35,341 nt of DNA from an uncultured Bacteroidales bacterium (GTDB lineage: Bacteria > Bacteroidota > Bacteroidia > Bacteroidales > WCHB1-69). Where the stretch lies: the NCBI GenBank assembly GCA_900315705.1, contig ONAB01000001.1, positions 207,178 to 242,518 of the forward strand. Direction: 5' to 3'. Positions 11,186-35,341 of this stretch are shown here, piece by piece. A program made the position numbers and the translations under genes. The notes beneath the pieces were generated by a model, which saw only the letters and a program-made list of their open reading frames with translations, did no database searches and was not told the origin of the DNA. The number at the start of each line of letters is the position of its first letter. Position 1 is the stretch's first letter.

Positions 11186-12118
11186 CTATTTTCGGATAAT
11201 GGTGACGGTGCCCCTCATCTCCTGCTCAATGCCGTTTTGGGAGTACAGGAATTGATAGGTGTAGGTGCCGTCAGGACAGTTGTCGCCGTTCCAGGTGTTC
11301 TCGTAGGAACGGGTGCGATAAACTACCCGACCGCCCCGGTCATAAACGGCCAGTTCCCGCTTGACGCAATTTTCGATGCCTTGAATCACGAAGAAATCGT
11401 TGTATCCGTCGCCGTTGGGCGTGAACACGTTGGGGATTTCAATCTTGGAGGGCTGTTGCCATTCGATATCGGCAGGGTCGGCGTTTTGGACAACGGGATC
11501 CTCTTGTTGCTGGCGCATTATGACGGAGGACTGCGGGATGGCCACGTGGGAGATTACGGGCTTTACGGGAGAGTTTTTGCTAGCGGGGGAGATGGGCGCG
11601 GGCGACACTGCCGGCGCGGGCTTTGCGGCGGGCGCGGGGACAGTTTCGCTGACGGCGGGGGTGCTTTCGGCCCTTGGGGCAACAATCGTGTTGTCGGCGG
11701 GCAGCGCTTTGTCGGTGGGCAGTGTCTCGTCCCCTCCGAAGTCGCAATAGAATGTCTCGGGCACAGGCTCTTCAGCAGGAGCCGTTTCCTCTGCCGGTGT
11801 GGTCTCTTCCACAGCGGTGCTGTCGGCCATCACAACGGGGGTGCTTTCAGGTGCCGGGGTTTCGGGGGCGTTGTGACGCAGGCCCACTACCACAGCGGTG
11901 GTGACGGCCGCGGCGGTCAGCAGGGTTGCCCCGGCGGTCAGCAGAGCCTTGGAAAGGGAGAATGCACCGCCCTTGGCCGCACCGGTGGCCGAGGCCTGGG
12001 ATGCGGCGGAAGAGCCCTCCGTGGGGAGGACAAGGTCCAGCCGTTGGCTGAGGCGCTCCCAGCTGCCGGCCGGCGGCTCTTGCGTGTAGTGGTTCAATAT
12101 GTCTTTTAGCTCATTCAT
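11186..12118 (-). CDS. Putative anti-sigma factor with periplasmic CHU_C (T9SS-type) domain
   Basis: A 310-residue single-pass membrane protein. Residues 1-57 are cytoplasmic and start NELKDILNHYTQEPPAGSWE, resembling the short N-termini of membrane partners of Bacteroidota ECF sigma factors. Residues 58-80 are one hydrophobic segment. Residues 81-225 are a Pro/Ala/Glu/Thr-rich spacer long enough to reach far into the periplasm. Residues 226-310 are a gliding-motility-associated C-terminal (CHU_C) domain: VFTPNGDGYNDFFVIQGI, LAVYDRGGRVVY, WNGDNCPDGTYTYQF and a final beta strand. CHU_C domains normally end T9SS substrates that carry signal peptides; here the protein is membrane-anchored and has none. 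The ATG directly follows the sigma-factor TAA, so the pair is translationally coupled. The anti-sigma role is inferred from position and topology. Confidence 0.75.
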   Translation of the reverse strand: MNELKDILNHYTQEPPAGSWERLSQRLDLVLPTEGSSAASQASATGAAKGGAFSLSKALLTAGATLLTAAAVTTAVVVGLRHNAPETPAPESTPVVMADSTAVEETTPAEETAPAEEPVPETFYCDFGGDETLPTDKALPADNTIVAPRAESTPAVSETVPAPAAKPAPAVSPAPISPASKNSPVKPVISHVAIPQSSVIMRQQQEDPVVQNADPADIEWQQPSKIEIPNVFTPNGDGYNDFFVIQGIENCVKRELAVYDRGGRVVYRTRSYENTWNGDNCPDGTYTYQFLYSQNGIEQEMRGTVTIIRK

Positions 12119-12673
12119 TTATTGCTCTTTTCCTATTTTTGAAAGTTGTTCAAGTGCCCAGGCGCGTGCCCTTTGGTAATAGACTCTGACCGTGTTGTGG
12201 TTCATCCCCGTCTTCTCCGATATCTCCTTGAAGGAGAAGTCGTCGATGGCGTGCATATTGAAGATGACTCTCCAGTTTTCAGGCATCTTCTCAATCACTC
12301 GCATCACGTCCTGGGCCTCCCATTGTGCGTGCAAGTCCTCCTCCGGTCCGTCGGAAGGGAGCGTTGCAATGTTCTCCTCGAAGGACTCCATCTGCGGTTG
12401 TTTCTTCATTTTCCGCAGATGCTGCAACGAGGCATTGACCACAATGGAGTATATCCAACTTTGCAAAGAACCTGCCTTCTCCACGTCTCCAATATGCGTG
12501 AACACCGTGACAAAGGCCTCAATGAGCACGTCTTCCGCCTCCGTTTCGTTTCCGATGTAGCGGAGACAGACGGGAAACATCATCGGGGCAAACGTGTCGT
12601 ACAGAGCGCGTTGGGCCGATCGGTCGTTTCGCCGACATCCTTCAATGAGTTCTCGATTGTCAACGTTGTGCAT
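12119..12673 (-). CDS. ECF-type RNA polymerase sigma factor (sigma locus 1)
   Basis: A 184-residue sigma-70 family member with only regions 2 and 4. Region 2: MFPVCLRYIGNETEAEDVLI (residues about 33-52) and LQSWIYSIVVNASLQHLRKM. Region 4: KMPENWRVIFNMHAIDDFSF, then KEISEKTGMNHNTVRVYYQRAR with the helix-turn-helix. It directs RNA polymerase to a small set of promoters. It is preceded by a TGTAAC...GCATC element unlike the housekeeping promoters, so it is probably autoregulated, and is followed with no gap by its likely membrane-bound regulator. Its own targets beyond this operon are unknown. Confidence 0.93.
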   Translation of the reverse strand: MHNVDNRELIEGCRRNDRSAQRALYDTFAPMMFPVCLRYIGNETEAEDVLIEAFVTVFTHIGDVEKAGSLQSWIYSIVVNASLQHLRKMKKQPQMESFEENIATLPSDGPEEDLHAQWEAQDVMRVIEKMPENWRVIFNMHAIDDFSFKEISEKTGMNHNTVRVYYQRARAWALEQLSKIGKEQ

Positions 12674-12683
12674 TTTCCCTATA

Positions 12684-12710
12684 GATGCACGGTTAGTTGA
12701 TTTTGTTACA
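12684..12710 (-). promoter_or_regulatory. ECF-type promoter of sigma locus 1
   Basis: On the reverse strand TGTAAC (12705-12710), a 16-nt spacer, then GCATC (12684-12688), 11 nt before the sigma ATG. The -35-like TGTAAC and -10-like GCATC recur before the second sigma gene and the OMP gene at 22843 with a 14-nt spacer. Confidence 0.55.
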
Positions 12711-12723
12711 AAAAAATGAAAAA

Positions 12724-13710
12724 TTATTGGACGGATTTCACAATGGACTCCACCTCACGGAGATAGTCGCGTTTTTTCTCCTGCGGGGCGTAAACGAACC
12801 CGTCGATGGTGATGCACGATTTCTTGTCGGGGCTGAGCATTGTGTAGCTGTAGAAGGGGCCGCCCATCTTGTCGCGCACGGAGGCCCAGAGGCCGCGCAA
12901 CTCGACGCCGTTGTGGTAGCCTATCTTGTACTCGCGCGACAGAGGGTAGCCCTCCATATCGGCCACGATGGGGTAGGCGCCCTGCACCGCGCCTTGGATG
13001 TAGGCTTTGGTGATGCGGTTGCGCTCATAGACGATATTGTCCGTGGTCAGCTCGTAGGCCGGCGACTTGTAAATCATCACGAAACGGTCGTTCTTCGGTG
13101 TGCGGAAGAGGAGCCACAGGAAGTCCTCCTCCTCACGTCCCACCGTATAACCGCTGGGCACCGTCATCGAGATGCCGAACTTGTCCTGAATCTTCTTCTC
13201 CAGGTCGGGTTCGTTGAGCTTGCGGTGGGCGTTCTGCAGGCGCGCGATGTCGTTGTTGTACATCGCTTTTATGATTTCATCCTGATGCGACAGGAACAGT
13301 GCCATACAGGAATCCTGGTTGTTGCCGCGCAACACCACGTGGATCTGGGGACTGGTGTAGGGGTCCTTTTTCAACTCGTAGGAGTTGTTGGAGTAGTTGG
13401 GGTTGTAGTCGAACTGCAGGATGTTGCGGTGCCGGATGAACGAGGCTTGCAGGTCCTTGTTGCTGCACTGCAGCACATCAAACATCGGCTCTATCTGATT
13501 GATGGCCGGCTGCGGCTGCTGCATAATATCGCGAATCCTGGTCCGTGCCGCCGGGGTCCAATAGGCCGTGTCAATGGCCAGAATCATCTCGCCGGCCTTG
13601 CCCGTCGAGAAATTGTCCGACTTCACAGTGAAAACGGGAGAGGACTTCTGCTTGCAGGAGACGGCAAGGAGAAGCGCTGCCATCAGAAAGAGATAAATGT
13701 GTCTATTCAT
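12724..13710 (-). CDS. DUF4837 family lipoprotein
   Basis: A 328-residue protein from the ATG at 13710, chosen because it gives a standard lipoprotein signal peptide, MNRHIYLFLMAALLLAVSC, with a lipobox ending LAVSC. The seven extra N-terminal codons in the open frame (from 13731) add nothing useful. The body has segments typical of DUF4837, such as FGISMTVPSGYTVGREEEDF, FLWLLFRTPKNDRFVMIYKS and DKKSCITIDGFVYAPQEKKR. The function of the family is not established; it is common in Bacteroidota. Its 3' end is 14 nt from the -35-like box of the downstream sigma promoter. It may be transcribed into the sigma operon. Confidence 0.85.
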   Translation of the reverse strand: MNRHIYLFLMAALLLAVSCKQKSSPVFTVKSDNFSTGKAGEMILAIDTAYWTPAARTRIRDIMQQPQPAINQIEPMFDVLQCSNKDLQASFIRHRNILQFDYNPNYSNNSYELKKDPYTSPQIHVVLRGNNQDSCMALFLSHQDEIIKAMYNNDIARLQNAHRKLNEPDLEKKIQDKFGISMTVPSGYTVGREEEDFLWLLFRTPKNDRFVMIYKSPAYELTTDNIVYERNRITKAYIQGAVQGAYPIVADMEGYPLSREYKIGYHNGVELRGLWASVRDKMGGPFYSYTMLSPDKKSCITIDGFVYAPQEKKRDYLREVESIVKSVQ

Positions 13711-13741
13711 AATAATAATTTTATTTTTCATTAATAATAAT

Positions 13742-16537: not shown

Positions 16538-17053
16538 ATGAAGAAAGCAGAGTTTTGGTCGAAGCAGTACAAGAGCCACATCGGAAAGATGATTGGTGTG
16601 TGTTACCGCTATGTCGGCGACTGGCAGGTGGCGGAGGACCTGGCGCAGGATGCTTTCCTGCACGCGATAGAGAAGTCGGGCACCTACCACGCGTGGGGCA
16701 GCTTCGAGGGGTGGCTCAAGAAGATTGCCCTCAACGAGGCGCTGATGTACCTGCGCAACCAGCCCGAAACGGTGGCACTGGAAGAGGGGATGGCCGTTGA
16801 GGAACCGCTGGCCGACGAGCCCCAGGAGGTGAAAGAGGATTTCTCGCAGGAGGAGTTGTTGGAGTTCATCAGACAGTTGCCCGTCAAACAGCGCACGGTC
16901 TTCAACCTCTACGCTGTGGAGCACTGGTCGCACAAACAGATTGCCCAGAAACTGGACATCTCCGTCGCCAACTCCAAGGTGCTGCTTTCCCGCGCGAGGG
17001 CGGAGTTACAAGGGATGCTGGCGGCGATGAGAGTTAAGAAACTAAGAAATTAA
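16538..17053 (+). CDS. ECF-type RNA polymerase sigma factor (sigma locus 2)
   Basis: A 171-residue two-domain sigma factor. Region 2: MIGVCYRYVGDWQVAEDLAQ, then DAFLHAIEKSGTY and GWLKKIALNEALMYLRNQ. An acidic linker follows (about residues 85-105). Region 4: FIRQLPVKQRTVFNLYAVEH, then WSHKQIAQKLDISVANSKVL and LSRARAEL. It opens a same-strand run of genes for lipoproteins, a membrane anchor, a TonB receptor and an outer-membrane protein, and is probably autoregulated from the TGTAAC...GCATC promoter. Its last codons (VKKLRN and stop) are built from a TAAGAAAY octanucleotide repeat, so the C-terminus could vary between strains. Confidence 0.94.
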   Translation: MKKAEFWSKQYKSHIGKMIGVCYRYVGDWQVAEDLAQDAFLHAIEKSGTYHAWGSFEGWLKKIALNEALMYLRNQPETVALEEGMAVEEPLADEPQEVKEDFSQEELLEFIRQLPVKQRTVFNLYAVEHWSHKQIAQKLDISVANSKVLLSRARAELQGMLAAMRVKKLRN

Positions 17054-17074: not shown

Positions 17075-17644
17075 ATGACAACATTATTCCTTGAGCAGTC
17101 CCGAAGAGACAAGAGCTCGGTAGAGCAATTAACCTCTCACAAGCGCAGCGCAGTGTGTGGCGCAGCCATCCTCCTAATGGCCGTCGCTTTTCTGATGACC
17201 GCTTGCACGAAACCCGAAAAGAAAGCGCTCGACGGTACCTGGCGGTGGACCGCCACAACGGGCGGCATCGCCGGTGTGTGGTTCACCCCCGAGAGTGAAG
17301 GCTTCGAGGCCGAGCTCGTCTTCAACGGCAGCAGTTTCACTCTACTTAAAGATGGCGAGAAGGTTGTCTCCGGAACCTATCGCATTGATTATGATGTGGA
17401 TGAAACGTTCTACACCAACAAGGGAGACCAAGACGAACCCTTCTATTCCTGGTTCAACATACGTTTCCAACTGACACAGGCCCAGCACAAGAAAATCGCA
17501 GAGGCCTTCAACGGGAAGATTTCGTTGGCCACGCCGCACAAGTTTCTCGCCACCCTCGGTTACAGCGAGGCAGAGGGGCAGGTGTTTTCAATGTGCGAAG
17601 ACGGAATGTATGACGGTTTCTGCTATACTTTTCTAAAGAAATGA
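17075..17644 (+). CDS. Putative lipoprotein, unknown function (sigma locus 2)
   Basis: A 189-residue protein 21 nt after the sigma gene. A hydrophobic stretch at about residues 28-44 ends in LMTAC, a lipobox, so it is probably an outer-membrane or periplasmic lipoprotein. The 28 residues before it (including EQSRRDKSSVEQLTSHKR) are unusually long for a signal peptide n-region, so the true start may be further in, or this segment may have a cytoplasmic role. The mature part has GTWRWTATTGGIAGVWFTP and GSSFTLLKDGEKVVSGTYRI, like the small beta-barrel lipocalin-like/META-type lipoproteins. No anti-sigma motif is recognised. A 148-nt gap follows, holding a short 5-bp hairpin at 17731-17749. Confidence 0.75.
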   Translation: MTTLFLEQSRRDKSSVEQLTSHKRSAVCGAAILLMAVAFLMTACTKPEKKALDGTWRWTATTGGIAGVWFTPESEGFEAELVFNGSSFTLLKDGEKVVSGTYRIDYDVDETFYTNKGDQDEPFYSWFNIRFQLTQAQHKKIAEAFNGKISLATPHKFLATLGYSEAEGQVFSMCEDGMYDGFCYTFLKK

Positions 17645-34869: not shown

Positions 34870-35341
34870 CTACCGTCCCAGCATCACGCTTCCCTTGACG
34901 GTGTGCTCCTCCTCGCGGGCGCTCTTGTAGCGGATTACCCAGACGTACATTCCCCTCGGCAGGTTGCCGCCGTCCCATCCCGTGTGCATATCCTTGGTGA
35001 GGAAGACCATCGGACCCCAGCGGTCATAGATCATCATCTCGAAGTCCTCGATCTCGTCGGGATGGCTGAAAATGGGCAGGAAGCGGTCGTTGAGGCCGTC
35101 GCCGTTTGGGGTGAAGGCGTTGGGCATCCAGAGTTCCTGCGCGCAGGGCTCGTAGTCGATGTCAATGTCATCGTTATGGGAGTAGCAGAGGTTGGTGACG
35201 GTGACGGAATAGCTGCCCGGTTGGCGCACCACAAAGCGCGGTTCGGTGCTGCCGTCCTGCCAGCGGTAGGTGCAGAAGGGCAGGTTGGCGGAGAGCACCA
35301 GCTCGTCGCCCTCGCAGAGGGTGGTGTCGGTGCCGAGGTTG
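34870..35341 (-). CDS. C-terminus of a CHU_C-type T9SS surface protein (5' end outside the window)
   Basis: Only the last 157 residues are visible; the frame continues past 35341. The first part (LGTDTTLCEGDELVLSANLP, then YRWQDGSTEPRFVVRQPGSY) is a PKD/Ig-like repeat typical of large adhesin-like proteins. The last about 90 residues are a CHU_C domain: LWMPNAFTPNGDGLNDRFLP, MIYDRWGPMVFLTKD, GWDGGNLPRGMYVWVIRYKS and a final beta strand ending KGSVMLGR. Proteins with this ending are T9SS (type B) substrates delivered to the surface. Its full size and function cannot be told here. Confidence 0.93.
   Translation of the reverse strand, partial: NLGTDTTLCEGDELVLSANLPFCTYRWQDGSTEPRFVVRQPGSYSVTVTNLCYSHNDDIDIDYEPCAQELWMPNAFTPNGDGLNDRFLPIFSHPDEIEDFEMMIYDRWGPMVFLTKDMHTGWDGGNLPRGMYVWVIRYKSAREEEHTVKGSVMLGR

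Follow-up and report, generated by a model that had tools for sequence, protein, structure and literature searches.

A candidate membrane anti-sigma factor ending in a T9SS sorting domain, encoded beside an ECF sigma factor in Bacteroidales

The T9SS normally reads a sorting tag on exported proteins. The locus described here raises the question of what such a tag, a CHU_C domain, could be doing at the end of an inner-membrane protein whose gene directly follows that of an ECF sigma factor. The locus lies in a stretch of 35,341 nucleotides (the window; C12:207178-242518) of the 3.0 Mb genome of an uncultured Bacteroidales bacterium (G000). The answer reached below is that a gene switch is probably kept in check by a protein of the inner membrane that ends in a T9SS sorting tag, an arrangement that suggests a coupling of gene expression to the secretion machine or the outer surface.

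The two genes of the pair (Table 1) abut, with the sigma gene stop codon at positions 12121-12119 and the partner ATG starting at 12118 on the same (-) strand, which supports the coupling that the original prediction had read from this junction. The sigma product (P0002) scores 43 bits against Sigma70_r2 and 50 bits against Sigma70_r4_2 in Pfam, each above its cut-off, and the general TIGR02937 is the sole NCBIfam model passing its cut-off among the matches listed. The mutS gene lies 3' of the partner gene in convergent orientation. On the other side, the DUF4837 gene precedes the sigma gene in 31 of 36 loci of the window pair's family, hereafter family A (24/29 and 7/7), the five exceptions being four loci without DUF4837 in the available stretch and one that is cut; it is a probable member of the sigma/partner operon.

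Table 1. Positions in the window of the sigma/partner pair, the parts of the partner protein and the features upstream.
Feature	Positions	Strand	Basis or remark
ECF sigma factor gene, product 184 aa (P0002)	12119..12673	-	Pfam, NCBIfam
CHU_C anti-sigma candidate gene, tethered product 310 aa (P0001)	11186..12118	-	Pfam, NCBIfam
N-terminal module, residues ~1-54	11957..12118	-	alignment and profile
Membrane helix, residues ~56-81	11876..11953	-	hydropathy, AF2 secondary structure
Pro/Ala/Glu-rich tether, residues ~82-225	11444..11875	-	poorly conserved in alignment
CHU_C / type B T9SS C-terminal sorting domain, residues 226-307	11198..11443	-	Pfam, NCBIfam
Promoter-like site of ECF type, TGTAAC-N17-CATCTA, conserved	12682..12710	-	ends 8 nt before sigma ATG
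DUF4837 lipoprotein-like gene	12724..13731	-	directly 5' of sigma gene

The window also contains a second ECF sigma gene (16538-17053, +), followed by a gene for a lipoprotein-like protein of 189 aa (17075-17644, +). At its right end there is a CHU_C match (34879-35175, -), and a very similar match starts contig C6; the similarity of the two suggests that the assembly may break inside a repeated CHU_C gene.

The partner (P0001) has the layout that had been claimed for it, namely a cytoplasmic-type N-terminus, a single membrane helix, a tether of about 144 aa and a complete CHU_C domain. This last domain scores 76.2 bits against CHU_C (PF13585, cut-off 27), covering profile positions 1-86 of 86, and 53.2 bits against TIGR04131 (cut-off 35), and it tops by score all 24 CHU_C matches in its own genome. 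A Pfam scan of P0001 up to E=1 returned CHU_C alone, with no barrel, FecR or zinc-finger (ZAS) anti-sigma domain. There is a single hydropathy peak, from residue 62, falling within the helix predicted for residues 56-81 by an AlphaFold2 model of low confidence (mean pLDDT 39), from which secondary structure alone was taken. By hydropathy and sequence no signal peptide is present, the extreme N-terminus having no hydrophobic stretch and the helix following an N-terminus of 54 residues. Hydropathy and predicted helix thus agree with the earlier proposal that this CHU_C protein lacks a signal peptide and would be anchored in the inner membrane.

In 27 aligned family A rows, P15, W20, L27 and D28 are invariant in the N-terminus, and so are D207 and P208 near the tether end and the CHU_C core, with V209 nearly so; W20 is the only N-terminal residue invariant across families A and B (see below) combined. 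The tether of P0001 is of low complexity and variable. Family A tethers measure 104-157 aa, those of family B 130-156, and those found elsewhere 183-403, part of the latter carrying PKD-like domains; the tether reaches at least 104 aa in 66 of 67 CHU_C proteins, namely the 66 with a detectable helix. Such a tether is, by our estimate, long enough to span the periplasm.

A recurring sigma/CHU_C neighbourhood, the absence of which would have spoken against the original prediction, is found across the genus and also elsewhere among the families of the Bacteroidales. Among 36 other genomes of the genus (G405-G408 being left out for family A), the family A sigma gene adjoins its partner in 35 (28/29 and 7/7), the exception (L030) being cut by a contig end; the spacing between the two genes ranges from an overlap up to a gap of 176 nt. 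The same pair is carried by 'Bacteroidales bacterium UBA1176' and 'RGIG8237' from water buffalo rumen (L094, L095). A diverged paralogous pair, family B, likewise consists of a sigma factor and a partner with a short N-terminus, a helix, a Pro/Thr-rich tether and CHU_C, a layout seen in 18/18 of the first loci inspected. By profile search, 37 of the 41 genomes of the genus carry family B, with one copy (G017) broken or misassembled and the sigma gene adjacent in all 36 intact copies; the search did not find it in G000, G008, G010 and G031, the last three of which are less than 65% complete. In the aligned rows of both families (27 of A, 17 of B) CHU_C is conserved and the tether is not. Since architecture and adjacency recur both in the genus and in other families of the order, the pair is more than chance, and the earlier reading of P0001 as a putative membrane-tethered sigma regulator with a T9SS-type domain draws support from its architecture, its coupling and its recurrence.

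Relatives of the sigma factor were sought at the level of the order, in 119 Bacteroidales genomes, and matches at E<=1e-15 were obtained in 117. By a custom CHU_C model, CHU_C-ended partners occur at 28 of 97 inspected related sigma loci (25 genomes, 25 families) and the other 69 partners end otherwise, a ratio that is not a prevalence, as the loci were drawn from the best-scoring sigma matches. The 97 exclude loci whose partner (at least 250 aa, within 200 bp) was absent or cut (L251, L254, L267, L306, L309), as well as tandem duplicates (L217, L235, L239, L242); for L218, L222, L225, L227, L230 and L241 longer stretches were used. Pfam models matched on 80 of the 97 partners were OMP_b-brl_2 (41) and OMP_b-brl (29), whose counts overlap, CHU_C (22) and PKD_4 (12); the custom model recognized 23 of the same 80 partners, L229 and L285 lying below the Pfam cut-off. 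The 69 partners without CHU_C are called barrel-form here by their layout and by these counts from the 80 scanned partners, and most of them resemble Dma proteins, which end in an outer-membrane beta-barrel. One example is a named Bacteroidales contig (L096) where the sigma factor is 37% identical to P0002 over the matched part and the partner is barrel-ended.

The two forms of partner are related at their N-termini. A profile of this region built from 57 barrel-form partners alone detects P0001 with E=6e-6 and, at E<=1e-3, recovers all 27 family A proteins, 21 of the 23 order CHU_C partners and two of 17 family B proteins, this last family being matched weakly (12/17 at E 0.1); it matches none of 172 decoys at E<=1. 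As the profile finds CHU_C partners and no decoys, both forms share a putative anti-sigma end, if only weakly recognizable in family B, and by this homology P0001 would be a Dma-like anti-sigma with a T9SS signal in the place of the barrel. CHU_C ends are found on several branches of the sigma tree (94 rows), where the end type needs 12 changes versus a shuffled mean of 29 and the well-supported branches force 2. The end was therefore exchanged more than once, the number being unsure in a quick tree with 48 of 91 inner branches open.

Other variants of the layout occur in the same genome. At L325 (G000:C21:136000-138266) a related sigma is accompanied by a 'headless' partner of 169 aa, with N-terminus, helix and Pro/Ala-rich tether and no end domain. 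Also, four ECF sigmas (L080, L081, L082 and L092; 347, 340, 369 and 451 aa) are fused in-frame to a hydrophobic segment and a tail. They recall Dma3, a sigma-fused Dma protein (PMC13088901), but show no barrel apparent by eye.

The distribution of the partner beyond the order was assessed by a profile search of 345 genomes of the phylum, in which at most the best six candidates per genome were scored. Among the matches listed, CHU_C proteins of less than 600 aa either had a signal peptide, as judged by eye, or were cut pieces, and none had a coupled sigma; at one locus of this search (L162) a related sigma lies nearby on the opposite strand. Since the approach missed the CHU_C-ended partners of G042 and G055, it says little on absence outside Bacteroidales, where no case is known to us.

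The explanation toward which we lean, with modest confidence, is that P0001 is a Dma-like membrane anti-sigma that reaches the outer membrane through its T9SS signal, the engagement state of which frees the sigma factor for its own operon and for genes of secreted proteins. The N-terminus would most likely bind the sigma factor and hold it at the inner membrane, while the tether would bring the C-terminal domain (CTD) to where the T9SS and its shuttles could reach it. The state of the CTD (free, pulled, anchored or blocked) could then alter the inner-membrane part by force or proteolysis, and engagement might either free or hold the sigma. Once freed, the sigma would transcribe the operon to which it belongs, together with genes for secreted proteins of the T9SS type. 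P0001 may in this manner act as a trans-envelope anti-sigma that senses T9SS export or engagement, or surface anchoring. Of the two roles offered in the original prediction, a sensor of the T9SS or surface is thus also the reading favoured here, while no result points to a decoy. Counted against T9SS engagement are the inner-membrane anchor of the CTD and the missing signal peptide.

The machinery that this explanation calls for is encoded in the genome, with SprA at C12:149602-156630 and three PorP/SprF genes. These shuttle genes lie on C20 and C31, the sigma/partner pair lies on C12, and no PorP/SprF or type B cargo gene is found beside the window pair. SprA occurs in 112 of the 119 order genomes; six of the seven SprA-less genomes are without a CHU_C match and the seventh (74% complete) has four. 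None of the 28 CHU_C loci and 5 of the 69 other loci lie in SprA-less genomes (P=0.32), and with SprA so widespread the lack of the CHU_C form in these genomes is not significant.

PorP/SprF proteins are described as anchoring or delivering type B CTDs (PMC9143113, PMC12618676), so that a shuttle gene beside the tethered CTD is expected if the T9SS reads it. Neighbouring genes were compared between 20 of the 28 CHU_C loci and 20 other loci, hand-picked mostly for long contigs. In 12 of the 20 extended CHU_C loci a gene on the same strand starts within 600 bp 3' of the partner. Genes no more than two places downstream number 22 and include five with a type B CTD, five M16 peptidases and two PorP/SprF shuttles, with at most one type A CTD by the families listed. 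In 5 of the 20 loci, one of the two genes that follow the partner thus encodes a type B CTD protein. The PorP/SprF gene is directly 3' of the partner in L349 and L357 and is the third gene in L352; in 18 of the 20 loci no shuttle adjoins the partner. In contrast, type A CTDs are encoded by 20 of the 37 genes downstream of 24 barrel-form pairs (22 with a close same-strand downstream gene), and custom models found neither PorP/SprF nor CHU_C among these 37, the one CHU_C gene seen lying elsewhere in locus L363. The P values of the comparison (8e-5 and 5e-4) are a guide only, the loci being partly related and hand-picked.

Two arrangements recur in these neighbourhoods. Barrel-form pairs (L247, L359-L377) often precede genes for PKD / CarboxypepD_reg proteins whose CTD is of type A, as at L359:4220-5836 (+). 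Also, a cluster of sigma, CHU_C anti-sigma, M16 peptidase and large CHU_C protein is found in L335, L340, L341, L345 and L353, both in family B of the genus and in other families, and by gene size in L336 and L337; in L339 the M16 gene alone is visible before the contig ends. A specific pairing in cis between the tethered CTD and the CTD of its neighbouring cargo was considered and found no support, their identity (28-38%) being no closer than that to the cargo CTDs of other loci.

A checkpoint of the FlgM kind can be proposed tentatively from this picture. The T9SS would grip the CTD, and the pull, or its failure, would free a sigma factor that makes T9SS cargo; the outer-membrane end would be a swappable module, with the barrel going with type A cargo and the CTD with type B cargo or shuttles. 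Alternatively, the CHU_C domain could stay folded in the periplasm as an ordinary sensor, or as a competitor of T9SS substrates, and never be engaged by the outer-membrane translocon. The inner-membrane anchor, the absent signal peptide and the lack of a shuttle gene adjoining the window pair all fit this alternative, which we nonetheless consider rather unlikely: the tethers of the 66 measured proteins and the outer-membrane barrels that related partners carry on the same chassis make the far end seem meant for the outer membrane, and two relatives have a PorP/SprF gene directly 3' of the partner.

Further indications come from the region upstream of the pair, where the promoter-like site (Table 1) ends so close to the sigma ATG that the message would be leaderless. 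The pattern TG(T/C)AAC-N16-18-CG(T/A)C is found 5' of the sigma gene in 22/35 family A and 7/18 family B loci, where shuffles expect 0. If CATC, the form found in the clade of the window, is admitted too, family A has 24/35 versus 0.15 from shuffles, these rows being related and not independent. As a control, 1 of 170 upstream regions of other ORFs in the order loci has the site. A looser version occurs at 8 of 65 non-CHU_C sigma loci of the order (0.25 expected) and at none of the 23 order CHU_C loci.

The exact pattern TGTAAC-N16-18-CATCTA matches the own genome twice, once before the pair and once at C19:36722-36750, and the reversed control pattern likewise has two matches; in three close relatives it has four matches and the reversed control none. 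The C19 site lies 84 nt before a gene for 151 aa (signal peptide by eye), which is followed after 30 nt by a CHU_C gene with a 950-aa frame. Between this site and the 151-aa gene there also seems to lie a housekeeping-like promoter, as judged by eye against the consensus. The matches in G015 and G022 are at the pair, and those in G028 lie at distances of 21 and 29 nt from the start of genes for large proteins that, by eye, have signal peptides. All six exact matches therefore precede either the sigma/partner pair or secreted-looking proteins, and these motifs suggest that the sigma factor is autoregulated and that its regulon consists of secreted cargo. A link between an anti-sigma/ECF pair and a class of promoters compared with T9SS control has also been described in Flavobacterium psychrophilum (PMC9723704).

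The promoter matches before secreted-looking proteins, and the T9SS type B cargo and shuttles that adjoin some CHU_C pairs, also speak against a general envelope anti-sigma, in which the CTD would merely anchor the tether at a PorP-like outer-membrane protein and the signal would be the condition of the outer membrane and not the activity of the T9SS. Vesiculation and glycan loci are indeed controlled by Dma proteins, which have a barrel at that place (PMC13088901), and the other form is also present in 10 of the 25 genomes where the CHU_C form occurs (among the loci inspected), observations that favor such an anti-sigma; we hold it to be distinctly improbable. That the CHU_C end is a chance fusion without a role, the N-terminus alone being of consequence, as the headless partner of another related sigma in the own genome might indicate, is very improbable given the conservation of CHU_C but not of the tether in the aligned rows of both families (27 and 17), the top score of the P0001 domain in its genome and the several sigma-tree branches that bear CHU_C.

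As a Dma-like anti-sigma that would reach the outer membrane through a T9SS signal, P0001 recalls several known systems. FlgM, in its export checkpoint with sigma28, is soluble and exits the cell. By analogy, P0001 would likewise be an anti-sigma read by a secretion machine whose cargo genes its sigma would serve, but it is membrane-tethered, and the comparison concerns possible working, not membership. RsgI-type anti-sigmas of Gram-positive bacteria show the same succession of cytoplasmic anti-sigma part, one helix, linker and outside domain; their outside sensor domains are carbohydrate-binding ends, and that of P0001 is CHU_C instead.

With T9SS type B substrates (PMC9143113, PMC12618676), P0001 shares a complete CHU_C/TIGR04131 domain and a genome that has the T9SS and shuttles; it differs in being, by prediction, fixed in the inner membrane, in its coupling to a sigma gene and in having no signal peptide. 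An adjacent PorP/SprF gene is common but not universal for such substrates. The PorA - PorXY - SigP route of Porphyromonas gingivalis (PMC7712824) is similar in that an ECF sigma is under the influence of a protein with a T9SS CTD. However, PorA is a surface protein of its own that acts upstream of a two-component system, and other factors should mediate between it and inner-membrane PorY (PMC7712824), whereas the CTD of P0001 sits within the candidate anti-sigma itself.

The closest likeness is to the Dma proteins of Bacteroides thetaiotaomicron, whose layout (PMC13088901) is an N-terminal anti-sigma part, a helix, a long disordered tether and a C-terminal barrel, beside an ECF21 sigma (Das). 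P0001 would share the anti-sigma N-terminus (by homology), the one helix, the long disordered tether and the adjacent ECF sigma, but it ends in a T9SS sorting domain of type B and not in a beta-barrel. As to the ECF21 trait, P0002 has its general TIGR02937 match, and related sigmas adjoin barrel-form partners. Lacking the barrel of a Dma protein and the signal peptide of a T9SS substrate, P0001 is placed as a Dma-like variant. The combination of these parts was not found in the literature searched (mostly open-access papers, preprints excluded), each part being known individually. An anti-sigma with a built-in T9SS signal would be a candidate wire from surface state to ECF sigma, bearing on how Bacteroidota adjust surface-cargo expression to the capacity of their T9SS, and it shows that regulators of the Dma type can exchange their outer-membrane end.
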